Source of the DNA: Nanobdellota archaeon
GTDB lineage: Archaea > Nanobdellota > Nanobdellia > Pacearchaeales > GW2011-AR1
Length of the DNA stretch: 33,212 bases
Assembly: GCA_018830525.1 (NCBI GenBank)
Contig: JAHJSH010000003.1
Coordinates: 1 to 33,212, forward strand
Direction of reading: 5' to 3'
Shown here: piece by piece, positions 7,060-33,212 of the stretch
Numbering within the stretch: the first letter of the stretch is position 1
How the letters are laid out: the number at the start of each line of letters is the position of its first letter
Made by a program: the position numbers and the translations under genes
The notes under the pieces: generated by a model
Database searches by the model: none
What the model saw: only the letters and a program-made list of their open reading frames with translations
What the model was told of the DNA's origin: nothing

Positions 7060-7620
7060 ATGGTTAAGAAGCGTGCGATTGTTTTTGTTGATGGTAATAA
7101 TTGGTACCATGGCGTTAAGGGTCTGATTAATAAACCGAAGTCGGTTGATATTGGTAATCTTTCTTCGATGATTGCTGATAAATTTGATTTAGAGATATCT
7201 GGAATTAGGTATTATAATTCGACGCCAGATATTGAATCTGGGGAAGATAATTATTACAAGCATATGGTTTTTTTGGCAGGATTGAAGAAGAGAGGATTTG
7301 AGGTGAATACAAATAAATTGAAAAAGATAAGAGTAAATGGAAAGGTGGTCCGTGTGGAGAAGGGTATTGATGTTATGATTACTGTTGATATGATTAGTAA
7401 GGCGTTGATTGATGATGAATGTGATTGTTGTATTTTGATTTCGGGAGATTGTGATTTTGTTCCGGTTATGCGGTTGATAAAAAAAGCTGGTAAAGAAGTT
7501 TTGACGGCGTCTGTTTTAAGGAGTTATGCTCGAGAGTTGTTACAAGGAGAGTTTCGATTTTGGATTTTGAAAAAGAATGATCTTGTTAAATGTTTTAAGG
7601 GTTATAATGGTAAAAAATAA
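7060..7620 (+). CDS. NYN-domain (LabA-like, PIN-fold) ribonuclease
   Basis: A 186-residue NYN-domain protein (PF01936). Acidic residues expected for metal binding are in FVDGNNW (D11), EKGIDVMITVDM (D104) and SGDCDFVPV (D130, D132). NYN proteins are PIN-like nucleases acting on RNA. The gene overlaps the start of the following iron-sulfur gene if that begins at 7607, so the two are probably cotranscribed. Relation to the upstream redox genes is unclear. Confidence 0.85.
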   Translation: MVKKRAIVFVDGNNWYHGVKGLINKPKSVDIGNLSSMIADKFDLEISGIRYYNSTPDIESGEDNYYKHMVFLAGLKKRGFEVNTNKLKKIRVNGKVVRVEKGIDVMITVDMISKALIDDECDCCILISGDCDFVPVMRLIKKAGKEVLTASVLRSYARELLQGEFRFWILKKNDLVKCFKGYNGKK

Positions 7621-8047
7621 AATAACTGAAGCTGGCCGGCCGGCAGATTCCAGGCAGGTGGCTGGAGCCAAGATTGAAGCAGATAACTTAATGGAAGAAG
7701 CAAGTGAGGTTTTTGATTCGTGTATCAAATGCGGGATGTGTAAGTCTCTTTGTCCGGTTTTTAAGGTTTTGAAGGAAGAACAAGTTTCTCCTCGGGGAAA
7801 AGCGATTATTCTTTCAGATAAGATCATGGATAAGATTTTGTTTGAGTGTACATTTTGTAAGGGTTGTGAACGGAATTGTCCGTTGGATATCAAGATTTGT
7901 GATGGTGTTAAGAAGGCTCGTGAAGCGATGGTTTTACGGGGGAAGGGTTTGAAGTCGAATGAGGAGATGATGGAGAACATTCGAAAATATGGAACTCCTT
8001 TTGGAAAGGGGGATAAGAAAGATTTAGAGAAGTTGTATTGCTGCTAA
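7607..8047 (+). CDS. Two-[4Fe-4S] ferredoxin-like subunit (HdrC/GlcF N-domain type)
   Basis: Up to 146 residues with two CxxCxxCxxxCP motifs: C39, C42, C45, C49 (CIKCGMCKSLCP) and C81, C84, C87, C91 (CTFCKGCERNCP). This matches the ferredoxin part of GlcF or HdrC, which normally precedes CCG domains in one chain. Here it is separate from the CCG protein at 3700, hence the split-enzyme reading. If the start is 7607 it overlaps the NYN gene by 14 nt and includes a GC-rich coded stretch (residues 9-21) unlike the rest. ATG 7691 (MEEASEVFDSC...) would exclude that stretch and is a good alternative. The stop codon directly abuts the last attC-like site of the integron. Confidence 0.8.
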   Translation: MVKNKITEAGRPADSRQVAGAKIEADNLMEEASEVFDSCIKCGMCKSLCPVFKVLKEEQVSPRGKAIILSDKIMDKILFECTFCKGCERNCPLDIKICDGVKKAREAMVLRGKGLKSNEEMMENIRKYGTPFGKGDKKDLEKLYCC

Positions 8048-8121
8048 TTAGGGATTAAGAGGAGTTCGCGAAGCGAATTTGGGAAATTTCAGCAGGAAAT
8101 TTCCTCTTAATCGCTGTTATG
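8048..8121 (-). repeat. attC-like site A (terminal, with eroded R' core)
   Basis: The outer stem GATTAAGAGGA (8053-8063) with TCCTCTTAATC (8102-8112) is 11 bp and perfect. Inside are two hairpins, TTCGC-gaa-GCGAA and GGAAATTTC-agcag-GAAATTTCC. TGTTAT at 8115-8120 keeps the gene-side R'' box (minus strand ATAACA). The opposite end lacks the TAACATC of sites B and D and runs straight into the stop codon of the iron-sulfur gene, so this last site looks unable to accept further recombination. Confidence 0.65.
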
Positions 8122-8171
8122 TGGGGAGACTGCAAGTCGACCGACCGAAGGGACAGTTTAGAATTACCACA

Positions 8172-8447
8172 CTAATGTTTTTTATATTTCAATTTTAATG
8201 CTAGAATTAGAATTATTGCACAGGAAGCAAAATTTAATCCTGTAACAATTTCTAGCAACAAATCAGAGATTACTAAAAGCGCATACAAAAAAGTAATACA
8301 ACTACAAAAAGTCCAAATGACATAAGATTGAATATTTGCGCTTGCAATTTTTTTTGTTAAATCTCTGATTGTTGGGATATATCCTATTGTGGCAATAATT
8401 CCCGTGCTTGCATAAAGAAATGCAATAATTGTTAAGATGGTTTCCAT
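8172..8447 (-). CDS. PQ-loop/SemiSWEET-like small membrane protein (cassette 1)
   Basis: A 91-residue protein with three predicted membrane segments and the phrase TIGYIPTIRDL near residues 20-30, which resembles the PQ-loop (GYIPQIxxL) of SemiSWEET and related transporters. SemiSWEETs are about 90 residues with three helices and work as dimers moving small sugars, so the length fits. The substrate is not known. A TATA box GATTTATATT on the minus strand (8472-8481) is centred 28-29 nt upstream of the ATG, so this cassette carries its own archaeal promoter and the mRNA is probably leaderless. The gene lies between inverted arms and ends 1 nt from the left arm. Confidence 0.65.
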   Translation of the reverse strand: METILTIIAFLYASTGIIATIGYIPTIRDLTKKIASANIQSYVIWTFCSCITFLYALLVISDLLLEIVTGLNFASCAIILILALKLKYKKH

Positions 8448-8481: not shown

Positions 8482-8501
8482 TTGCGGTAATTCTAAATTT
8501 C

Positions 8502-8593
8502 ACTTAACATCGCGATTAAGAGAAGTTCTGAACGTAGTGAGGAATTTGGGAAATTTGCGAGCCGAGCAAATTTCCTCATAAGCCCTGTTATAC
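8502..8593 (-). repeat. attC-like site B
   Basis: TAACA (8505-8509) and TGTTA (8586-8590) are the outer inverted boxes. The minus-strand core at the low-coordinate end is GTTAAGT (8508-8502), an exact GTTRRRY. TTAAGAG (8514-8522 region) pairs with CTCATAA with one mismatch. The interior keeps the conserved GAAGTT...AATTTGG pair seen in all four sites, and a hairpin AAATTTGC-gagccga-GCAAATTT. The loop gagccga is identical in site C. Confidence 0.72.
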
Positions 8594-8640
8594 GAGGGTG
8601 AGGAGCGTAGCGACGAAAGCGCAGCGTCCCCTTGAGTTCT
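8588..8640 (-). repeat. Conserved 3' module of cassettes 2 and 3 (copy 1)
   Basis: About 55 nt starting TTATACGAGGGTGAGGAG and ending TTGAGTT lie between attC site B and the TrmO gene. A second copy lies at 9278-9333 between site C and the DUF6326-like gene, differing by a few substitutions and small indels. The copied unit ends exactly at the cassette-specific inverted arm, so cassettes share attC plus this module but not the gene. Confidence 0.65.
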
Positions 8641-8653
8641 GACCCCCACCGTT

Positions 8654-9127
8654 TTATTCTCTTGCCTTTGGTTTTGGACGGATTTTTTTTGTCTCTGTCC
8701 ATCCGTTATTTGCGTTATCAAAATGATCAAATCTGGGGATATATGGTTTAATATCAATTAGAGGTGTATTATCAAGAATGTCTATTCCAGATACTTCTAG
8801 AATATTTTTATTTCTTTTTTCTAGTTTTACAATTGAGATACCAATACCGTTTGGTCTACAGGGATGCCTAGAAGCAAAAACGCCATGTGGAGAATCATCT
8901 AAAAATGTTGGACGGGATAATTTTATTTCGCCAGCTTTATCAAAAATATAAAACAGTATAATATGTGAAAATGTCTCAATTGTTTCTAATCCTTCTTCAT
9001 ATTCTGGAAATAATTCTATTTGTCCTTTCCCTTCAGGATTTACATTGCCTTGAATAGGGCATTCTTCTTTTGTTTTATATGGACTGTGGATTATCCCAAT
9101 TTGTTCTATTTCAAATTTCATATTCAT
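8654..9127 (-). CDS. trmO: TrmO-like tRNA t6A37 N6-methyltransferase (cassette 2)
   Basis: A 157-residue TsaA/TrmO-domain protein (PF01980): IGIIHSPYKTKEECPIQGN at the N-terminus, EGLETIETFSHIILFYIFD in the middle, then the signature GVFASRHPCRPNGIGISIVKL and IDILDNTPLIDIKPYIPRFD. TrmO methylates N6-threonylcarbamoyladenosine at position 37 of certain tRNAs using SAM. It lacks the C-terminal domain of the longer bacterial TrmO. GGAGG lies 7 nt before ATG 9127; ATG 9121 is an alternative lying 27 nt from a TATA-like box (9144-9153). As a single gene in a cassette with its own promoter it is probably a transferred extra copy or a neutral passenger. Confidence 0.82.
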   Translation of the reverse strand: MNMKFEIEQIGIIHSPYKTKEECPIQGNVNPEGKGQIELFPEYEEGLETIETFSHIILFYIFDKAGEIKLSRPTFLDDSPHGVFASRHPCRPNGIGISIVKLEKRNKNILEVSGIDILDNTPLIDIKPYIPRFDHFDNANNGWTETKKIRPKPKARE

Positions 9128-9143
9128 AATAATTCCTCCAATT

Positions 9144-9153
9144 TATTTAAATA
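9144..9153 (-). promoter_or_regulatory. TATA box inside cassette 2
   Basis: Minus-strand TATTTAAAT-type element 21-27 nt before the two possible TrmO start codons, just inside the 5' inverted arm. Confidence 0.5.
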
Positions 9154-9182
9154 TATTCATTTTTAGGCGGGGGTCAGAATTG

Positions 9183-9284
9183 CGTATAACGTCAGGGATA
9201 TACGAAGTTTTTCTGGAACGAAGTGGAAGAAAAATTTGGGTGAGGGGCGAGCCGAGCCCCGAACCGTATATCCCTTGTTATACG
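9183..9284 (-). repeat. attC-like site C
   Basis: This is the clearest of the four. CGTATAAC (9183-9190) pairs with GTTATACG (9277-9284), and after a small bulge AGGGATATACG (9194-9204) pairs with CGTATATCCCT (9265-9275), giving 19 bp of outer stem with extrahelical bases as in bacterial attC. Inside are an A/T hairpin (AGTTTTTCT with GAAGAAAAATTT) and GGGGC-gagccga-GCCCC. The minus-strand core is GTTATAC. Confidence 0.78.
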
Positions 9285-9333
9285 AGGGTGAGGAGTGATA
9301 GCGACGAAAGCGCAGCCCCGTCCCCCTTGAGTT
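9278..9333 (-). repeat. Conserved 3' module of cassettes 2 and 3 (copy 2)
   Basis: Second copy of the module at 8588-8640: TTATACGAGGGTGAGGAG, then AGCGACGAAAGCGCAGC, then CCCCCTTGAGTT. It is slightly longer, with CCC and ATA insertions. Confidence 0.65.
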
Positions 9334-9795
9334 TTAAACCCCACTATTTTTAACATAAGGCCATTTCCATGCATACCAAACTATTGATAATAGTAGTAAG
9401 ACCTCTACAATACTACCAAAAATATAGAATACCCATGTTTCTCCAATACAGAAAAATACGATACTACTTGCATAGAGTAAAGCTAATATTATGTTTGTCC
9501 AACGATTAATTGTAGGTTTTAACGTCAAGGACAGAAAAACCATTAGACTTGGAATCAATATATATACTGTTCCAAATATCAAGAATCCTTGAGTAATCTG
9601 CATACCTGCTACAATTCCTGACCGTATTTCATCAATAATTCCCGGTCGGTAAAATCCAAATATATCTACATATGCAAATAAAAACAGCATAGCTATCCAT
9701 AATGCTGAAATCTTAAGCTTTACATTAATTTTTATATCCTCAAAAATTCTTGCGGTCTTTTTATTTGTATTTATTTTTTCTTTATTGTTTTCCAT
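9334..9795 (-). CDS. DUF6326-like four-helix membrane protein (cassette 3)
   Basis: A 153-residue protein with a charged N-terminal 30 residues and four membrane helices. ISALWIAMLFLFAYVDIFGF, GMQITQGFLIFGTVYILIPS and FGSIVEVLLLLSIVWYAWKWP match the pattern I associate with DUF6326, a family best known in bacteria and without a described function. A TATA box GATTTATAT on the minus strand (9819-9828) lies about 28 nt before the ATG at 9795, and a weak GGA stretch is nearby. The stop codon is inside the left inverted arm, so the arm sequence is partly coding. Confidence 0.7.
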   Translation of the reverse strand: MENNKEKINTNKKTARIFEDIKINVKLKISALWIAMLFLFAYVDIFGFYRPGIIDEIRSGIVAGMQITQGFLIFGTVYILIPSLMVFLSLTLKPTINRWTNIILALLYASSIVFFCIGETWVFYIFGSIVEVLLLLSIVWYAWKWPYVKNSGV

Positions 9796-9818
9796 ATTTT
9801 ATTCCTTTATTTAATAAT

Positions 9819-9828
9819 TATATAAATC
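9819..9828 (-). promoter_or_regulatory. TATA box inside cassette 3
   Basis: Minus-strand GATTTATATA about 28 nt before the start at 9795. A second AATTTATATAG lies at 9829-9840. Same arm-TATA-gene order as cassettes 1 and 2. Confidence 0.5.
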
Positions 9829-9868
9829 TATATAAATTTATCTAAATTGAGATAGGGTTTGAAATTTC

Positions 9869-9970
9869 ATTTAACATCGGGCTTAAGAGAAGTTCGGTTT
9901 TGAGGCAACCCACAAAACCGAATTTGGATGGAGAAGTCTGCAGACTTCGTAATCTCTTAATCGCTGTTAT
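9869..9970 (-). repeat. attC-like site D
   Basis: TAACA (9872-9876) and TGTTA (9965-9969) are the outer boxes; the minus-strand core GTTAAAT fits GTTRRRY exactly. TTAAGAGA (9883-9890) pairs with TCTCTTAA (9953-9960). Two perfect hairpins sit inside: TTCGGTTTTG (9893-9902) with CAAAACCGAA (9913-9922), and the 16-nt palindrome GAAGTCTG-CAGACTTC (9933-9948). It ends the large cassette 4. Confidence 0.75.
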
Positions 9971-9993
9971 ATTCGTCTGACCAAAGGGAAGAC

Positions 9994-10032
9994 CTAAAAT
10001 TTAGTGCAACGATGCCGAAGGCAAAATTTTAG
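9994..10032. repeat. Nested hairpin between site D and the RM island
   Basis: CTAAAATTT (9994-10002) pairs with AAATTTTAG (10024-10032), and TGCC-gaa-GGCA forms a second stem inside. It lies in the gene-free stretch 9971-10267, which also holds an inverted arm, a 34-nt direct repeat, three GGGGCGTC motifs and two A/T hairpins. Confidence 0.55.
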
Positions 10033-10054
10033 AGTTTTTGGATTACTGATAAAT

Positions 10055-10088
10055 TCGACCGCATGGAGTGAATATGTCCGAAGGACGA
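10055..10088 (+). repeat. 34-nt direct repeat, left copy
   Basis: It begins TCGACCGCATGGAGTGAATA and ends in the palindromic GTCCGAAGGAC. A second copy in the same orientation at 13743-13776 matches at 31 of 34 positions. The two copies bracket the RM island and could be sites or products of an insertion. Confidence 0.7.
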
Positions 10089-10092
10089 GAGA

Positions 10093-10187
10093 GGGGCGTC
10101 AGATTTTTTGCTTCTTTTTTCTAAAAAAAGAAGATAGAAGGGGCGTCTTGTTTTGGTTCTTTTCTGAAAAGAACATTTAGGGGCGTC
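10093..10187. repeat. GGGGCGTC triplet with two A/T hairpins, left end of RM island
   Basis: GGGGCGTC occurs at 10093, 10140 and 10180. The gaps hold perfect hairpins CTTCTTTTTT-cta-AAAAAAGAAG (10111-10133) and GTTCTTTT-ctg-AAAAGAAC (10156-10174). The mirror arrangement, GACGCCCC, occurs three times at the right end. Confidence 0.75.
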
Positions 10188-10216
10188 GTTATATCACTGG
10201 ACAATGGGCCAAAAGA

Positions 10217-10224
10217 TTTAAATA
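10217..10224 (+). promoter_or_regulatory. TATA box of the RHH-methyltransferase operon
   Basis: TTTAAATA about 48 nt upstream of the RHH start codon. The transcript would start near 10245. Confidence 0.45.
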
Positions 10225-10228
10225 GTAG

Positions 10229-10248
10229 TACATTTATTTACATTTGTA
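10229..10248. promoter_or_regulatory. TACATTT direct repeat, candidate RHH operator
   Basis: TACATTTATT and TACATTTGTA begin at 10229 and 10239, exactly 10 bp apart, directly after the TATA box and before a ribbon-helix-helix gene. RHH proteins commonly bind short tandem sites one helical turn apart. Binding is inferred. Confidence 0.4.
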
Positions 10249-10267
10249 TCCAAATGAGAGGTTAAAT

Positions 10268-10408
10268 ATGGCACAGAAAAATGTAACATTAAGTCTTGAT
10301 GAAAATATTTACGATAATTATAAAGAATTTTGTAAAAAGAATGCAATAGCTTTATCAAGAAGTATTGAAGTTTTTATGGAAGAAAAAACAAAAAAGGGAG
10401 AAAAATGA
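10268..10408 (+). CDS. Ribbon-helix-helix (CopG-like) small protein, candidate RM controller
   Basis: A 46-residue ORF, MAQKNVTLSLDENIYDNYKE then FCKKNAIALSRSIEVFMEEK. It has the RHH layout: a beta strand (NVTLSLD), helix 1 (ENIYDNYKEFCKKN) and helix 2 (ALSRSIEVFMEEKT). AGAGG lies about 7 nt before the ATG. The stop TGA overlaps the methyltransferase ATG (ATGA), so they are translationally coupled. It is the probable regulator of the RM operon via the TACATTT repeats. Confidence 0.75.
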   Translation: MAQKNVTLSLDENIYDNYKEFCKKNAIALSRSIEVFMEEKTKKGEK

Positions 10409-12012
10409 GTCAAGCACTTTTATCAATAACCGAAGCATCAAAATGGGCATCTGATTATTTAGATAGACCTGTATCTCAATCTAATATAAGTTATTTAATT
10501 CAGTATGCTAAAATAAAAAAATATCATGATGAGCAGAAAAAAATAAAGATTAATCAAGAAGAACTAAAAAAATACTATGATGAAGAAGTTGTTCAAAAAC
10601 AACAAGAATGGAAAAGTAAATTAGGTAAAGATTTAGATTGGGGTTTGTCTTTTTCACACTTGAGGGAATCTGATACTACAAAACATGTTCACAGATTGCA
10701 CCCATATAAAGGAAAATTTATCCCTCATCTTGTTGAATATTTTTTAGATAAACATATTAATACCCACAAAAAAAAGATTTATTTTAAAGAAGGAGACATC
10801 ATTCTTGATCCTTTTATGGGCAGTGGGACAACTCTTGTTCAATCATCGGAATTAGGTTTGCACTCCATAGGCATTGATGTTTCAGATTTTAATTGTTTAA
10901 TTTCTAAAGTTAAAATAGGAAAACACGATGTAGTTAAATTAGACAAAACCTCAAGAGATGTTTGTTTCAAAACAAGAGAATTTAGTCAAAGAGTATTTGA
11001 TGACTCTTTTGATGAACAATTAAAAGAAAAATTATCCGAATTTAATAATAAACATTTTCCTAACCCCGAATTTAAGACAAAAATTAGAAAGGGATTAATT
11101 AAAGATGAAAAAGAATACGGAGAAGAAAAGCTTAAACAATTCTTAGATGAAAATAGAGAATTTTTTGAGAAAAACGGAACAAAAGACAAGACAGGTCTAT
11201 TAAATGAAGAAGATATGAATAGTTTTTTGAATAAATGGTTTTCAAAGAGAGTAAAGCAAGAACTTTTTTATTATATAAAATTATTAGAAAAAATTGAAGA
11301 TGAAAATCTAAAAAATATTTTGAGAGTCATTTTGAGTAGAACTGCTCGTTCTTGTAGAGCAACAAAGCATTCAGATTTGGCAACATTAACAGAACCACAA
11401 ATTGGACCTTATTATTGTAGAAAACATAAAAAATTATGTACTCCAATAAATAGCATTGTTAAACATTTGATAAGATATACTTACGACACAATAGAAAGAT
11501 TAAAAGAGTTTTCAAATCTTAAAAAAGATGTTAGTTCTTTTGTAATTCATGGAGATTCAAGAGATGTAAATATATTTGATGAAGTAAAAGAACAAAACCA
11601 CGAGTTTTATAAGTTGTTGGCAAATAAGAAAATCGCAGGAATTTTTACATCTCCCCCTTATGTTGGACAAATTGATTATCACGAACAACACGCATATTCA
11701 TATGAGTTGTTTAATATTCCAAGAAAAGATGATAAGGAAATCGGACCCTTATACAAGGGAAAAGGGAAACAAGCAAAAGACGAGTATGTAGAAGGCATAA
11801 GTAAAGTATTAATTAATATAAATAAATTTGTTAAGGATGATGGAGATTATTTTATTGTTGCAAATGATCAATTTAACTTATATCCTTTAATTGCTGAAAA
11901 AAGCGGTTTGAAAATTATTGATAAATTTAAGAGACCTGTTTTAAACAGAACTGAAAGAGATAGACAACCTTATGCAGAAATAATATTCCATATGAAAAAG
12001 GAGAGAAAATAA
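10405..12012 (+). CDS. DNA methyltransferase (N4-cytosine/N6-adenine type) of an RM system
   Basis: A 535-residue SAM-dependent DNA methyltransferase. It begins with a helical HTH/excisionase-like segment (ITEASKWASDYLDRPVSQSN, residues 8-27). Then come HRLHPYKGKFIPHLVEYF (about 96-113), the SAM-binding motif I DPFMGSGTT at 135-143, and the catalytic motif IV TSPPY at about 415-419. SPPY is typical of N4-cytosine or related amino-methyltransferases. A long insert (about 170-400) between the motifs probably holds target recognition. It is preceded by the RHH gene and followed 3 nt later by a protease gene. The convergent TdeIII-like gene is the likely cognate nuclease. Confidence 0.87.
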   Translation: MSQALLSITEASKWASDYLDRPVSQSNISYLIQYAKIKKYHDEQKKIKINQEELKKYYDEEVVQKQQEWKSKLGKDLDWGLSFSHLRESDTTKHVHRLHPYKGKFIPHLVEYFLDKHINTHKKKIYFKEGDIILDPFMGSGTTLVQSSELGLHSIGIDVSDFNCLISKVKIGKHDVVKLDKTSRDVCFKTREFSQRVFDDSFDEQLKEKLSEFNNKHFPNPEFKTKIRKGLIKDEKEYGEEKLKQFLDENREFFEKNGTKDKTGLLNEEDMNSFLNKWFSKRVKQELFYYIKLLEKIEDENLKNILRVILSRTARSCRATKHSDLATLTEPQIGPYYCRKHKKLCTPINSIVKHLIRYTYDTIERLKEFSNLKKDVSSFVIHGDSRDVNIFDEVKEQNHEFYKLLANKKIAGIFTSPPYVGQIDYHEQHAYSYELFNIPRKDDKEIGPLYKGKGKQAKDEYVEGISKVLININKFVKDDGDYFIVANDQFNLYPLIAEKSGLKIIDKFKRPVLNRTERDRQPYAEIIFHMKKERK

Positions 12013-12015
12013 GAA

Positions 12016-12846
12016 ATGCAACCGCAAACAATCTCTGAGCAAATGCAGTATAGCACGGTTCGTTTAGTGACGAATTCTGATTCAAAGGGGACAGGATTCT
12101 TTTTTCAATTCAAAATTAATGAACAAAATATTCCCGTAATAATCACAAACAAGCATGTCGTAAATGGTAACGAAAATGAGGAAGTAAACTTCTTTTTACA
12201 TTCTAAAAAAGAACAAGTATTAGGTGAAGAAAAAATAAATATAAGATTTAAACCAAAATGGTATTTTCATAAAGATAAAGATTTATGTTTTTGTTTCTTT
12301 GCACCTTTACTTCATCAGATAAAAGAAAAACAAAATCAAGATGTATTTTTTATACCAATTACTGAAGATTTCATTTGGGATAATGAAAAACTTGAAGGTT
12401 TAAGTGCTATTGAAGAGATTATAATGGTTGGTTATCCTATTGGATTATGGGATGAAAAAAATAATTTGCCTCTATTTAGAAAAGGAATTACTGCTTCTCA
12501 TCCAGCAATTGATTTTAATGATAAAAACATAGGTGTAGTTGATATGGCTTGTTTTCCCGGTTCATCAGGATCTCCGATATTTATTCTTAATGAAAATGGA
12601 TTTAGTGACAAAAAAGGAACTACATATCTTGGAGCCAAAAGAGTAGTTTTTCTGGGAACACTTTTTCAAGGCCCTCAATTTAATGCAAAGGGGGAGTTAA
12701 TTATAGAAAATATACCTACACAACAAAAAGTAATTTCAACAACACCCTTAATGATAAATTTAGGTTATTATATAAAATCAATTGAGATAATTGATTTTAA
12801 AAAAACTATTGAAGAAATATTATCTAAACAGAACATAAAAAATTAA
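12016..12846 (+). CDS. Trypsin-like (S1-fold) serine protease in the RM island
   Basis: This 276-residue protein has the chymotrypsin-fold triad in order: H47 in IITNKHVV, D90 in KDKDLCF, and S185 in FPGSSGSPIF. It lacks a signal peptide, so it should act in the cytosol. It starts 3 nt after the methyltransferase stop and overlaps the end of the endonuclease gene by 4 nt. Trypsin-like proteases are recurrent partners in defence islands, where they may cleave a toxin or sensor. A link to the RM system here is inferred from the operon. Confidence 0.82.
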   Translation: MQPQTISEQMQYSTVRLVTNSDSKGTGFFFQFKINEQNIPVIITNKHVVNGNENEEVNFFLHSKKEQVLGEEKINIRFKPKWYFHKDKDLCFCFFAPLLHQIKEKQNQDVFFIPITEDFIWDNEKLEGLSAIEEIIMVGYPIGLWDEKNNLPLFRKGITASHPAIDFNDKNIGVVDMACFPGSSGSPIFILNENGFSDKKGTTYLGAKRVVFLGTLFQGPQFNAKGELIIENIPTQQKVISTTPLMINLGYYIKSIEIIDFKKTIEEILSKQNIKN

Positions 12847-13622
12847 AATCTATTATTCATTACATCTTCGATTAAAGGAGTAATTTCTGTTTTGACTTCT
12901 TCAAGAACTTCTAATAAATCTTCATAAGTACCTTCTCCACCTAATAAATCCCAGAATTCTTCTTGAACTAAAAGACCTGTTCCTTGTTCAAACATAGGGG
13001 ATACTTTCCAATTATTGTATTTTCCGTTTTCATTGTTATAATATACCCCAAATATAATAATTGCATTTTTATCAAAATCTTCAAGTTTTATTTCTCTTTT
13101 TTTCATAGCAACAATATTCAATAAATCCTCTTTTGCGGCTCGGACTTCTTTTTTATTAGGATCTGGTCCCTTCATTTCTACAAAATATTCTTTTCCGGAT
13201 TTGTCTTTTAAGAATAAATCAATAGTAATTCTAATCTCTCTTATATTTTTAGTTTCAGCATTATAAATCATCTTTATTTCTTCATCATAATCTGAATTTA
13301 TCTTCTTCTCTTCTAAATCTTTAACCAAATTTCTTATAACTGCACTTTCAGAATTAGATATTTTTCCCGTAAAAACGAATTTCTTTACTTCAACAAAATT
13401 ATTATTCCCTTCGGCTATTTTTCTTGCTAAAATTTCATAGTAACTTCCAAGCATAGTAGCAGTTCCATGAATAAATGATTTGATATTGGAAAATTTTCCA
13501 AAGACTATATCAATAAAAGGATTTCCAGATTTTTTTGAAAAATCATAGTTATTTATTTTCTTTTTGATTCTATCAATCAAATCTTGTTTGATTTCCAGTT
13601 TTAACTCATTCGTAAGTGCCAT
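12843..13622 (-). CDS. TdeIII-like type II restriction endonuclease
   Basis: A 259-residue protein resembling TdeIII-family endonucleases (PF09520), with SFIHGTATMLGSYYEILARK (50-69) and a PD-(D/E)XK-like core: D135 in RITIDLFL and E149-x-K151 in YFVEMKGPDPNK. TdeIII is known to recognise GGNCC; whether this enzyme does cannot be read from sequence. It is convergent with the methyltransferase-protease operon. A TATA box on the minus strand (13645-13653) lies 27 nt upstream of its ATG. It is the cassette-sense gene of cassette 4. Confidence 0.72.
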   Translation of the reverse strand: MALTNELKLEIKQDLIDRIKKKINNYDFSKKSGNPFIDIVFGKFSNIKSFIHGTATMLGSYYEILARKIAEGNNNFVEVKKFVFTGKISNSESAVIRNLVKDLEEKKINSDYDEEIKMIYNAETKNIREIRITIDLFLKDKSGKEYFVEMKGPDPNKKEVRAAKEDLLNIVAMKKREIKLEDFDKNAIIIFGVYYNNENGKYNNWKVSPMFEQGTGLLVQEEFWDLLGGEGTYEDLLEVLEEVKTEITPLIEDVMNNRF

Positions 13623-13644
13623 ATTTAAATAAAGATAAACTTTG

Positions 13645-13653
13645 ATATATAAA
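13645..13653 (-). promoter_or_regulatory. TATA box of the TdeIII-like gene
   Basis: Minus-strand TTTATATAT centred 27 nt upstream of the ATG at 13622, which fits a leaderless transcript. Confidence 0.55.
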
Positions 13654-13676
13654 TGTTCTTCTGTTTTTGTGTTTAA

Positions 13677-13782
13677 GACGCCCCCGAATAATATTTCTTT
13701 TTCCGCAGAAAAAGACTATCTTGACGCCCCTTCTAATAAATATCGACTGCAGGGAGTGAATATGTCCGTAGGACGACGCCCC
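13677..13782. repeat. GACGCCCC triplet with A/T hairpin, right end of RM island
   Basis: GACGCCCC occurs at 13677, 13723 and 13775, the inverse of the three GGGGCGTC motifs at 10093-10187. TCTTTTTC-cgca-GAAAAAGA (13696-13715) is a hairpin between the first two. The 34-nt direct repeat lies before the third. AGAAGGGGCGTC is shared by the middle motifs of both ends when inverted. Confidence 0.72.
13743..13776 (+). repeat. 34-nt direct repeat, right copy
   Basis: It begins TCGACTGCAGGGAGTGAATA and ends GTCCGTAGGACGA, matching the copy at 10055-10088 at 31 of 34 positions. It keeps the same orientation although the surrounding motifs are inverted. Confidence 0.7.
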
Positions 13783-13793
13783 TCTCTCTTTTG

Positions 13794-13812
13794 TTTCTTT
13801 TTCTAAAAGAAA
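13794..13812. repeat. A/T hairpin before the right arm of cassette 4
   Basis: TTTCTTTT-tct-AAAAGAAA, a perfect 8-bp stem 3 nt before the inverted arm AGTAATCCAAAAA. It matches the style of the other hairpins in the island ends. Confidence 0.55.
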
Positions 13813-13828
13813 GGAAGTAATCCAAAAA

Positions 13829-13845
13829 TTGAAACTAACAAGATG
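13829..13845 (-). other. Candidate attI recombination core
   Basis: AACTAAC (13833-13839; minus strand GTTAGTT) lies 4 nt from the cassette-4 arm, the same position that the attC cores hold relative to the arms of cassettes 1-3. It is 86 nt upstream of the recombinase start codon, where bacterial integrons have attI. GTTAGTT deviates from GTTRRRY at one position. No attC-like fold surrounds it, as expected for attI. Confidence 0.5.
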
Positions 13846-13897
13846 TACTGCTGAGTAAAGTTGGTTGTATATGTCATTTTGGGGTTAAAAGCCAAAT

Positions 13898-13907
13898 TTA
13901 TAAATAT
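13898..13907 (+). promoter_or_regulatory. TATA box of the recombinase gene
   Basis: TTTATAAATA centred 24 nt upstream of the ATG at 13926. Expression starts inside the attI-to-recombinase spacer. Confidence 0.58.
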
Positions 13908-13925: not shown

Positions 13926-14729
13926 ATGCATGGTTTATTGGAGAAACTGAAAGAAGAATTAAAGATTAGGAATTATGCTCGAAAAACGATTAAAAGTTAT
14001 CTTTATTCTGTTTCTAAATTCTTGGACTATTCAGAGTCTAAGGGAATAAATTTGGAAGTTGTGAAAGAATACACCCTTAAGCGATTAGAAGGGCAAAATC
14101 CTTCGAGTGTTGCAAAAGACCTTTTCGCCATTAAATTCTTTTTTGAAAATGTTCTAAATCAAGATTTAGTATTGCCCACAATCAAAAGAAACAAACCTTT
14201 ACCAGATATATTAACTATTGGGGAGATCAAGCAACTAATTGATAATACTTTGAACATTAAACATATTTTGATAATAAAGATTCTTTATGGGTGCGGGCTT
14301 CGGGTTTCCGAAATTATAAATTTGAAGAAAGAAGACGTTAATTTTGAAGAAGGTCTTATTCATGTCAAGATGGCTAAAGGCCGTAAGGATAGATTTGTTA
14401 AGATTCCTAATTCGGTAATTGAAGATTTGGAAAACTTTATGAAAATTTCTGGAGGTGTCTATCTATTTGGTTCTAATCGTGGGGGAAAATTGACTGATTC
14501 GACTATCCAGGCTATTATGAAAAATTCTGCTAAGAAGGCGGGGATTAAAAAACGAGTTTATCCTCATTTGCTTAGACATTCTTTTGCGACGCACCTACTT
14601 GAGCAGGGGACAGACTTGCGAGTGATTCAGAAATTACTTGGGCATTCAGATATTAAGACAACTCAAATCTATACACATATTTCTCAAGCTTCAATCCAAA
14701 ATGTTAAAAGTCCGTTGGATAATCTCTAA
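13926..14729 (+). CDS. Tyrosine recombinase (Xer/IntI-like), candidate integron integrase
   Basis: A 267-residue tyrosine recombinase. The N-terminal SAM-like DNA-binding domain (1-85) starts LEKLKEELKIRNYARKTIKS. The catalytic residues are R126 (GCGLRVSE), K in the KGRKDR beta turn (151-155), H214 and R217 (PHLLRHSFATHLL), H240 (LLGHSD) and Y249 (QIYTHI). The C-terminus, NVKSPLDNL, resembles the SPLD ending of IntI-type and phage integrases rather than the usual Xer ending. It lacks the 20-35 residue insertion before the HxxR box that marks bacterial IntI: only about 25 residues separate FGSNRGG and PHLLRH. Position next to attI argues for the integron role; a chromosomal XerA is the alternative. 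Confidence 0.85.
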   Translation: MHGLLEKLKEELKIRNYARKTIKSYLYSVSKFLDYSESKGINLEVVKEYTLKRLEGQNPSSVAKDLFAIKFFFENVLNQDLVLPTIKRNKPLPDILTIGEIKQLIDNTLNIKHILIIKILYGCGLRVSEIINLKKEDVNFEEGLIHVKMAKGRKDRFVKIPNSVIEDLENFMKISGGVYLFGSNRGGKLTDSTIQAIMKNSAKKAGIKKRVYPHLLRHSFATHLLEQGTDLRVIQKLLGHSDIKTTQIYTHISQASIQNVKSPLDNL

Positions 14730-18322: not shown

Positions 18323-20449
18323 ATGAAAAAAATATTATTAAGTTTGTTTATGTGTTTGCTTTTCGTTGGACTTGTTTCGGCGGTTGTAACTGAAGATAAT
18401 TATGTTAATTATGGGGAAATTGATAGTTCTGGGAATTTGATAACTACGAGTACAGCAGTTAATGGTGCGAGTGTGTTGGGTTATGTTTGTAGTTCTGCGA
18501 ATTGTGCAAGTGTTTCAAGCGTTTTATTTGGGCCTTTGAATGTTCCTGCGAATTTTATTACGTTGTCTTATCCTACAACTCTTCTTTCTTCGTTCGGTTA
18601 TGGAATTTATGTTTACAAGACGGGGTATATTCCTTATGAGGCCGAGTCGGATTATGCCGGAACTGGACAGGCTTCAAATTATACAAATTATTTGTCGAGG
18701 TTGCAATCTTGTAAGTCTAATATTGATAGTTTAACTTTGACTCAGAATGGGGGAAACATTGATGTTGAAGCGAATGTTGATTCTCCAATTAATCATGGTG
18801 GGCCTTTAAATTATATGCCCGCCCCGATTAGTTCGCATTATGCTGTTGATGTTGATGTTAAGATGGAAGTTAAGAAAGATGGTGTTTTGGATAATACAAA
18901 GACTCAGACAAAGACTGTGAATATTCCTTTTTCGGATGATGAAGATGTTGATTTTTCTTTTGTGGCTGGGGTGGGAGTTTATGAAGTGAAAATTATTACT
19001 TCGAAGGGAGATGATAAATGTGTTGGGGAAGTTCTTGTTGAGAAAACTAAGAGTATAACTATCGCTCCGAGTCCTGACCCTTGTCTTAGTAATCCTAATC
19101 TTGGACAGTCTTGTTCCATTGGTGTTGGAGCCTGTAATAATGTTGGAGTTTATGTTTGTAATTCTGCTGGGACGGATGTAGAATGTAATGCTGTCGCAGG
19201 AACTCCGGCGACTAATGATGCAAATTGTAATGGTATAGATGATGATTGTAATTTTTTGATTGATGATGGTTATGTTTCTACCTCTACTTCGTGTGGATTA
19301 GGACTTTGTGCTTCTACTGGATTTTTGCAATGCATTTTGGGAAGCGAGACAAATTCCTGTGTTGTTGGTACTTCGAGTTTTGAGATTTGTGATGGACTAG
19401 ACAACGATTGTGATGGAGTAACCGATGAGGGATGTTCTTGTACGAATGGAAACACACAATCTTGTGGAATTGATGTTGGGGAATGTAGCTTTGGAACACA
19501 AACTTGTTCTTCTGGAATTTGGGGAAGTTGTGTTGGGGGTGTTGGACCTGCAATTGAATTATGTGATGGGTTTGATAATGATTGTGATGGTGCCGTTGAC
19601 GAGGGTTATGTTGAGATTGCAACTTCGTGTGGTGTTGGTGTTTGCGCTACAGGGGGATTGTTACAATGTGTTGGTGGCGTCGAGGTAGATTCATGTAGTG
19701 CTGGGCTTTCAGGTGTTGAAATCTGTGATGGTTTGGACAACGATTGTGATGGAACTGTTGATGAGGGATGTGGGGGAGATGTTTTTGGTCCTATAGTTAA
19801 CTTGCTTGCGCCCCCGGGTGGACAAACTTTTTATGGGTTCTCATATATTGTCGATTTTGTGTTTAGTGTTAGTGATCAATCAGAGGTTTCAAGTTGTTAT
19901 GCGAATGTTTCTGGTGTTTCGTATCCTAATGTTAGTTCAATTGACAAAGTTTTGGATAATACTATTGGGGCGAATTTGAGTGAGGGAAATTATAGTGTTC
20001 AGGTTTTCTGTAGTGATGTTTTTGGAAATGACGGAAATAGTGGGGAAGTTTTATTTAGTGTTAAACAGCTTGGGGTTTGTTCAGTTGATGCAAATTGTAG
20101 TGATGATTATTATGGTAATAGGTATTGTAAGGGCGATGATATTTACGAAAATTTCCATGATTTTAGTTGTGTGAATGGAACTTGTGTTGAAAATGTGACT
20201 GAAGAGTTTGTGAAGACGTGTGTGGATGATTGTACTAAAGGAAGATGTACAAGTGATGATACTGATTATAATCGAAGTTATCTTAATCAGAATACTGGGA
20301 CAAAAAGTTTGATTAATTCTAGTTCTTTGAATTTGATTAGTCTTGGTAATGATGAAGTTGAAGGGTCTTGGAATTTGTTTTGGTTGTGGATAATTTTGTT
20401 AATAATTGGAATCTTAATTGTTCTTATATATATTGTTAGACTAATTTAG
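18323..20449 (+). CDS. Secreted surface protein with four MopE-type metal-binding repeats
   Basis: 708 residues. A signal peptide (1-20, ending GLVSA) is followed by a beta-rich region. Four repeats of the CDGxDNDCDGxxDEG type (PF11617) start near 301, 355, 413 and 467; the first is degenerate (CNGIDDDCNFLIDDG). They alternate with cysteine-rich TSCGxGxCxxxG units. An Ig-like segment follows (about 495-585), then a further Cys-rich stretch, and a C-terminal membrane helix (about 685-708) anchors it. The MopE motif takes its name from a methanotroph copper-binding protein and is common in surface proteins; metal or calcium binding here is inferred. It is in an operon with the preceding membrane protein. 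Confidence 0.82.
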   Translation: MKKILLSLFMCLLFVGLVSAVVTEDNYVNYGEIDSSGNLITTSTAVNGASVLGYVCSSANCASVSSVLFGPLNVPANFITLSYPTTLLSSFGYGIYVYKTGYIPYEAESDYAGTGQASNYTNYLSRLQSCKSNIDSLTLTQNGGNIDVEANVDSPINHGGPLNYMPAPISSHYAVDVDVKMEVKKDGVLDNTKTQTKTVNIPFSDDEDVDFSFVAGVGVYEVKIITSKGDDKCVGEVLVEKTKSITIAPSPDPCLSNPNLGQSCSIGVGACNNVGVYVCNSAGTDVECNAVAGTPATNDANCNGIDDDCNFLIDDGYVSTSTSCGLGLCASTGFLQCILGSETNSCVVGTSSFEICDGLDNDCDGVTDEGCSCTNGNTQSCGIDVGECSFGTQTCSSGIWGSCVGGVGPAIELCDGFDNDCDGAVDEGYVEIATSCGVGVCATGGLLQCVGGVEVDSCSAGLSGVEICDGLDNDCDGTVDEGCGGDVFGPIVNLLAPPGGQTFYGFSYIVDFVFSVSDQSEVSSCYANVSGVSYPNVSSIDKVLDNTIGANLSEGNYSVQVFCSDVFGNDGNSGEVLFSVKQLGVCSVDANCSDDYYGNRYCKGDDIYENFHDFSCVNGTCVENVTEEFVKTCVDDCTKGRCTSDDTDYNRSYLNQNTGTKSLINSSSLNLISLGNDEVEGSWNLFWLWIILLIIGILIVLIYIVRLI

Positions 20450-32599: not shown

Positions 32600-33212
32600 T
32601 TATTCTGTAATTGGTTTTCCTACGAATTGTCCTTTTTCCCAGAGACCTTCTTGGACGGTTCCATCGGGGTGCGTCATTTTTCCGAAACCATGTGGTCGTT
32701 CGTATGTCCAAGTGCCTGGGGGTGGTGGTTCAGTTATACCAAGGATTTTCGCATCACCATTCCATTCGCCTTCATATCTGTGGCCATCTGGATAATTAAT
32801 TGTTCCAGATTTTGTTTCGCCACTGAAAATCCCAGTTAGGATAGTTCCATCTTTACCTGTAAAGGTGCCTTTGTATTCAAGGCCTTTCTTGAATTCTCCA
32901 ACAAAAATTCCATTAGCCATATAGTGGGTTACTTGTCCTTCAGGGAAACCATTTGCAAATTGACCAACATATTTAGTGCCATCAGGTAATGTAAATGTTC
33001 CTTGCCCTTCTTGTTTACCATCTTTCCATTGGCCCACATATTTTTTGCCATCTGTCCAGGTGTAAGTTCCTTGCCCATTATATTTACCATTTGCAAATTG
33101 ACCAACATATACTGTCCCATCAGGTAATGTAAGCGTCCCTTGCCCGTGTCGTTTTCCGAATGAATGATTGCCACTATATGTTTGACCACCTAACCAAACA
33201 TAATCTCCATAA
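32600..33212 (-). CDS. MORN-repeat protein, C-terminal part (5' end outside window)
   Basis: The frame is open from the window edge to the stop at 32600, about 204 residues. At least eight MORN repeats (PF02493) of the type GQGTxTxPDGTxYxGQFxNG are visible: GQGTLTLPDGTVYVGQF, GQGTYTWTDGKKYVGQW, GQGTFTLPDGTKYVGQF, then more divergent ones, ending HGFGKMTHPDGTVQEGLWEK. MORN repeats form beta-hairpin solenoids that bind proteins or membranes, and in bacteria and eukaryotes are often fused to enzymes. What lies N-terminal is not visible. Confidence 0.85.
   Translation of the reverse strand, partial: YGDYVWLGGQTYSGNHSFGKRHGQGTLTLPDGTVYVGQFANGKYNGQGTYTWTDGKKYVGQWKDGKQEGQGTFTLPDGTKYVGQFANGFPEGQVTHYMANGIFVGEFKKGLEYKGTFTGKDGTILTGIFSGETKSGTINYPDGHRYEGEWNGDAKILGITEPPPPGTWTYERPHGFGKMTHPDGTVQEGLWEKGQFVGKPITE

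Follow-up and report, generated by a model that had tools for sequence, protein, structure and literature searches.

What role do the four foldable sites play that lie in tandem in one contig of a Nanobdellota archaeon, and which recombinase would act on them? The window (i.e., the whole stretch of DNA that was analysed, 33,212 nucleotides) is one contig (C1) of a host genome of 963 kb in 35 contigs, the nearest named relatives of which are Pacearchaeota metagenome-assembled genomes. As judged by sequence comparison, the window of this tiny archaeon holds a complete integron, i.e., a system that collects gene cassettes, and the four sites, A to D, are its shuffling sites. We read the whole system as a functional integron with a XerA-type integrase, i.e., a variant of the integron, and infer that its cassettes recombine. 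It is classed as a variant because it would work as an integron does, yet two features fail: the domain specific to the integron integrase IntI, and the extrahelical bases in the L stem of the sites. It is probable that this Pacearchaeota integron is complete, that it is in working order and that its integrase is the XerA-type recombinase; a mechanism is proposed below.

The sites were scored with a covariance model (CM R1) built from 14 sites, the E-values of which are rough:

8046-8122 (+): site A, at the distal end of the array (E 3e-15); right core GTTATGT at 8116-8122, left core degenerate, with TAATTAG in place of the expected AAC
8502-8593 (+): site B (E 8e-24); cores ACTTAAC at 8502-8508 and GTTATAC at 8587-8593
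9184-9283 (+): site C (E 1e-21); cores GTATAAC at 9184-9190 and GTTATAC at 9277-9283
9869-9972 (+): site D (E 4e-14); cores ATTTAAC at 9869-9875 and GTTATAT at 9966-9972

Each site is laid out as core, spacer, L stem, hairpin 1 (AAGTT...AATTT), GG, hairpin 2, L stem, spacer and core. The first-pass annotation had described four attC-like sites with outer arms and two hairpins within 8502-9970; all four hold as sites, and site A lies outside that interval. The outer stem plus two hairpins is the unconstrained minimum-energy fold of sites A, C and D, and site B has another best fold, despite which 26 of its 28 consensus pairs can form. Two details were confirmed: the loop GAGCCGA is identical in sites B and C on differing stems (GAAATTTGC/GCAAATTTC versus GGGGC/GCCCC), and hairpin 2 of site D is a perfect 16-nt palindrome, GAAGTCTGCAGACTTC. 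The left end of site A (8040-8062) has no AAC core and directly adjoins the stop codon of a ferredoxin-like gene (7577-8047); for this reason, excision of the last cassette may no longer be possible. A stretch of 30-60 nt separates the GTT core from the private repeat described below, at 8594-8632 (site B), at 9284-9330 (site C) and in relatives; it has a recurrent GCGCAGCG motif and possibly forms a third hairpin, the CCC/GGG ends of which seemingly swap between sites.

The sites belong to a family that extends well beyond the window. With site B as the query, a DNA search detected relatives in 15 of 56 genomes, its own genome included, and the covariance model matched 87 of the 180 genomes in the host's family, the Pacearchaeota, as well as 126 of the 371 genomes of its phylum; as metagenome-assembled genomes are incomplete, the counts of absence are soft. 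The host genome itself has one further, weaker site by this search, on contig C20. Across the recombinase loci that were fetched (936,925 bases), all matches below E = 0.07 were archaeal, and there was none below this value in 43 bacterial loci, which included genuine Vibrio-type integrons.

The suggestion that selection acts on the shape of the sites was borne out by compensatory change over 119 homologous sites. Double-sided changes numbered 571, compared with 144 in shuffles; 91.2% of cells were paired, compared with 73.1% in shuffles; and the covariation score of 0.449 (shuffles, 0.142) was reached by 0 of 500 shuffles, all of these values being somewhat in favour of the structure, as the rows were aligned with the covariance model itself. 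When the structure was slid by 1-3 columns, 29-53% of cells were paired. The mean folding z-score was -4.9 relative to dinucleotide shuffles (sample, n=30). As DNA, the minimum-energy folds of the homologues had both hairpins in 79 of the 119 sites and both hairpins together with the L stem in 67.

The branch takes the form of a three-way junction that is marked in its sequence and hardly varies. At the base of hairpin 1 (AAGTT-hairpin 1-AATTT), 114/119 sites have a G.T pair, and the GG between the two hairpins is unpaired in 114/116 sites. When the helix was checked for extrahelical bases, no unpaired column was found within the L helix; it is at the three-way junction that the unpaired GG is located. 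In the AAC/GTT core, the two A-T pairs form in 115/116 sites and the C-G pair in 113/116, counting G-U. Only this core is nearly invariant, a point against the integron reading: the strict 7-mers RYYYAAC and GTTRRRY were found in a minority (24/82 and 32/93, respectively).

The intervals between the sites are the cassettes. The array of the window has four, the first of which (next to the attI-like site) carries a restriction-modification system:

8172-8447 (-): gene of cassette A-B, encoding a 91-aa protein without family matches
8654-9127 (-): gene of cassette B-C, TrmO-like tRNA methyltransferase (PF01980, 2e-39; TIGR00104, 142 bits, cut-off 93)
9334-9795 (-): gene of cassette C-D, DUF6326 protein (PF19851, 1.5e-11)
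9973-13837 (-): first cassette, restriction-modification, ~3.9 kb with four ORFs
10268-10405 (+): small DUF6364-like ORF of the first cassette
10405-12012 (+): N6/N4 DNA methylase of the first cassette
12016-12846 (+): trypsin-like protein of the first cassette
12843-13622 (-): TdeIII-type restriction endonuclease of the first cassette

In the window and in 40 fetched regions, the sites point one way within each array, save that L176 has a weak site in the opposite orientation 4.6 kb away and that a palindromic site in L150 was hit twice. Of the 67 intervals that were analysed, most contain a single gene; the gene is on the attC top strand in 44 and on the other strand in 23. Since the longest ORF is on the other strand in those 23, expression from a common promoter is unlikely, which counts against the integron reading. 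Across arrays, the cargo includes methyltransferases, acetyltransferases, DNA methylases, transporters, a phosphotransferase-family (APH) protein and others. The edges of the restriction-modification cassette (9973-10200 and 13675-13790) have several GGGGCGTC / GACGCCCC octamers in inverted orientation, as well as a 34-nt repeat (10055-10088 and 13743-13776, 91%). A cassette end, AAATTAAAATTTGGGCGAAGCCAAGCAAC, is found in the same or a closely similar form by attI or attC in L152, L282, L299, L300, L320 and L010, which suggests one very widespread cassette.

Most cassettes have, at their two ends, an inverted repeat that is private to the cassette (P1):

8157-8168 and 8486-8497 (+): left and right arms, P1 of cassette A-B
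8637-8650 and 9166-9179 (+): left and right arms, P1 of cassette B-C
9332-9341 and 9855-9864 (+): left arm (weak on its own) and right arm, P1 of cassette C-D
10035-10047 and 13816-13828 (+): left and right arms, P1 of the restriction-modification cassette

Over the 67 cassettes, the mean complementarity of a cassette's own two ends was 13.1, compared with 8.3 for permuted partners (maximum of 2000 permutations, 9.1), and a score of 12 was reached by about two-thirds of cassettes, compared with 5% of mismatched pairs. P1 also occurs in first cassettes, that of the window included. Among bacterial cassettes (n=46) there were no private repeats (8.24 versus 7.86; maximum 8.61), and including the R boxes gave a slight signal only (10.2 versus 8.6). 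Terminal inverted repeats of a transposon were considered and rejected, because the repeats differ in every cassette. Because the P1 sequence differs between cassettes, it would be the pairing that is under selection.

Perhaps P1 is not a working part at all, but a trace of how cassettes were made (e.g. by copying across a fold-back), which would be compatible with an integron. A repeat that differs in every cassette cannot be recognised by its sequence as such, in agreement with this; on the other hand, P1 keeps its register with the site, starting 4 nt from it in 25/44 cassettes, and at its base has the RAGT/AATT motif, including a G.T pair, that is also found at the base of hairpin 1. On balance, a mere trace is possible but somewhat unlikely.

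Beyond the last site of the window, the following features were found:

13833-13880 (+): attI-like site, comprising the junction core AACTAAC (13833-13839) and an imperfect palindrome after it
13897-13906 (+): TATA-box-like TTTATAAATA ahead of the integrase gene, a reading from the sequence
13926-14729 (+): XerA-type tyrosine recombinase, 267 aa, the proposed integrase

The recombinase, which would act on sites of the A to D type, scores 237.5 bits with NF040815 (XerA_Arch; cut-off 220) and 211 bits with the IntI model TIGR02249, which is below the cut-off of 265 and in two stretches. Compared with a Vibrio IntI, 31 + 11 residues are missing where the additional domain would lie, and the catalytic residues are retained; compared with the IntI structure 2A3V, ~45 residues are missing. 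Thus, the IntI-specific additional domain (I2 helix) is absent from the recombinase of the window. The structure predicted for it (pLDDT 84.9, with low values near the tyrosine) resembles XerA 5HXY most closely, and IntI 2A3V is another of its matches.

A XerA gene lies just beyond the last site, at a constant end and in a constant orientation, in 15 loci (the window included). The geometry, with the recombinase at one end of the array and reading away from it, and attI in between, is that of the Vibrio-type arrays that were fetched. The main clade of array XerAs (32 rows, 100/99 support) is distinct from that of the host's other XerA and also from IntI, which forms a separate clade (100/100). 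The host's other XerA (L112) also falls in a separate clade, no member of which was seen beside an array. Sites were present in 35/42 genomes with the main XerA clade, compared with 52/138 of the others (p 1e-7). The 52 genomes with sites but without the main clade count against this XerA as the integrase, but are partly explained by other XerA lineages at arrays and by incomplete genomes. Such lineages outside the main clade (~41-48% identity) were seen at arrays in L179, L159/L311, L153/L312, L310, L317, L320, L325 and L204, so that the integrase of an array may have undergone replacement, or new recruitment, on more than one occasion. Flavobacteriales and other Bacteroidota (L206-L211) have XerA-like proteins resembling the archaeal integrases; these proteins (~38-48% identity) were rejected as a bacterial counterpart, as there are no covariance-model sites at their loci. 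The viral contigs with a recombinase yielded distant relatives only.

In relatives, a core ending in AAC is found 85-90 nt before the ATG of the integrase, mostly followed by a near-perfect palindrome; this core and palindrome are absent ahead of canonical XerA genes. Movement of cassettes can be seen by comparing genomes. One cassette is common to G010 and G002, which are of the same genus, at 84% identity; the body is the same and the right flank differs, being ...TTTCGTATAA|TATC, an attC, in one genome and ...TTTCACATAA|CAACG, an attI-like sequence near the end of the contig, in the other. The homology breaks at ATAA|C, and a break at AA|C is the G|TT rule of integrons read on the other strand. 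One other cassette (86-88%) is found at different array positions in three genomes. Taken together, these comparisons indicate that each cassette moves as a unit, the boundaries of which lie at the G|TT core. Whereas the first-pass annotation recognised the sites as attC-like, which is supported by their behaviour, it missed the integrase, attI, the fourth cassette and the private inverted repeats.

Further along the window, a large surface-type protein is encoded at 18323-20449, in which a repeat rich in DG.DNDCDG..DEG (57-nt repeat family D2) occurs four times, and tandem 69-nt repeats at 32600-33189 (-) encode a protein with regular YVGQ..G...G-type (MORN-like) repeats.

The features that are directly supported, i.e., the folded family of sites, the architecture of the array, the integrase and attI at a constant position, the core boundaries of cassettes, the changes in position of one cassette, the absence of the IntI domain and the presence of P1 in most cassettes, can be joined into the following mechanism. 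The plus strand of attC would fold into a site with a three-way junction, comprising the R box, the asymmetric spacer, the L stem, hairpin 1, the unpaired GG and hairpin 2. The XerA-type integrase would cut at the AA|C (G|TT) core; exchange between attC and attC would excise a cassette, and excised cassettes would be inserted at the palindromic attI ahead of the integrase gene. The integrase would use the folded single strand, with the unpaired GG and the G.T pair possibly standing in for the extrahelical bases and the I2 helix. P1 may bring the two flanking sites of a cassette together for excision, or may lengthen the site's stem once the cassette is a free circle. That this arrangement is an independent origin or an ancestral form of the integron in DPANN archaea, in which a XerA without the I2 helix acts on folded single-stranded junction sites and a private stem aids excision and insertion, is given about an even chance.

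One doubt concerns the folded single strand. A XerA-type recombinase could move cassettes as Xer enzymes ordinarily do, on double-stranded DNA, with the fold then serving cruciform extrusion, transcription termination or something else. The enzyme is indeed Xer-like and is without the I2 helix to which use of single strands is credited, and attI is palindromic, as is a dif site. However, the two strands are not equivalent. When both strands of each site were folded, as had been suggested, the plus strand was more stable in 108 sites and less stable in 8 (mean gain, 2 kcal/mol); the spacer is asymmetric (4 nt versus 2 nt, in 95/116 and 109/116 sites), and the GG is unpaired. Moreover, covariation extends over the whole branched fold, far past a 28-bp dif-type core. 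The plus strand is the best-folding strand of attC and is the bottom strand relative to most cassette genes; we infer that this bottom strand is the one that recombines, and recombination on double strands is judged unlikely.

It could also be supposed that the array is a CALIN-type cluster of ordinary attC sites, served in trans by an IntI from elsewhere and unrelated to the neighbouring XerA. Most archaeal integrons reported to date are CALINs (PMC9668308), but no IntI above the cut-off was found in the 180 genomes of the family, XerA keeps its end and orientation in the 15 loci, and the conserved attI lies ahead of exactly these XerA genes, rendering a cluster served in trans very improbable. 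Least credible of all, and hardly to be entertained, is that ordinary recombination has spread elements that belong to small genes as structured RNAs or as the ends of transcripts (terminators or processing elements): they are intergenic and fold well, and zero Rfam matches at gathering thresholds mean that they are not a described RNA, though an undescribed one could be meant, but cassette genes are on either strand, the homology breaks exactly at the AA|C core and the position of the integrase is constant.

The XerA-type integron thus looks like a separate and so far unreported route to the job of an integron, with a recombinase lacking a part thought essential for integrons. No description of such a system was found in the full-text literature on integrons with Pacearchaeota, XerA or DPANN, a coverage that mostly leaves out subscription papers and preprints. 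The I2 helix has been described as unique to IntI and necessary for the capture of cassettes (PMC7790495), which counts against a working XerA-type integron here. Conversely, a widespread archaeal integron layout without I2 provides a test of whether I2 is needed for single-strand recombination and capture, and bears on how integrons arose. It also allows one to ask whether the integrases that archaeal CALINs seem to lack are just of the XerA type, and provides DPANN archaea, whose genomes are about a megabase in size, with a dedicated means of gene collection.

How does this system compare with those already known? Integrons are known in Archaea, Nanoarchaeota included, with an IntI that has the additional domain, and most of the arrays are CALINs (Ghaly et al. 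2022, PMC9668308). The system described here shares with those integrons its archaeal hosts, tandem cassettes bounded by foldable attC sites and an attI by the integrase; it differs in that the integrase is XerA-type, without the IntI-specific domain. Branching alone is not novel, since the large VCR attC sites have been described as having a branched, variable terminal structure, which can be deleted with little effect (PMC2727003). With the sedentary chromosomal integrons of the Vibrio type (VCR attC, IntIA), the system has in common the layout of the array, the orientation of the integrase, the AAC/GTT core, the branched interior and folding of the bottom strand. In contrast, Vibrio-type IntI is ~320-340 aa long with I2, whereas the enzyme of the window is 267 aa long without it; Vibrio-type attC sites have extrahelical bases in the L stem, whereas the sites here have none; and Vibrio-type cassette ends are without the private repeats that are present in most cassettes here.

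Canonical archaeal XerA is encoded by a conserved chromosomal gene and resolves chromosome dimers at dif, with no tie to cassettes. The enzyme of the window is like that of the archaeal XerA/dif system in recombinase family and fold (4A8E, 5HXY); unlike canonical XerA, it belongs to a separate clade and lies beside a cassette array with an attI, in a genome that has another XerA.
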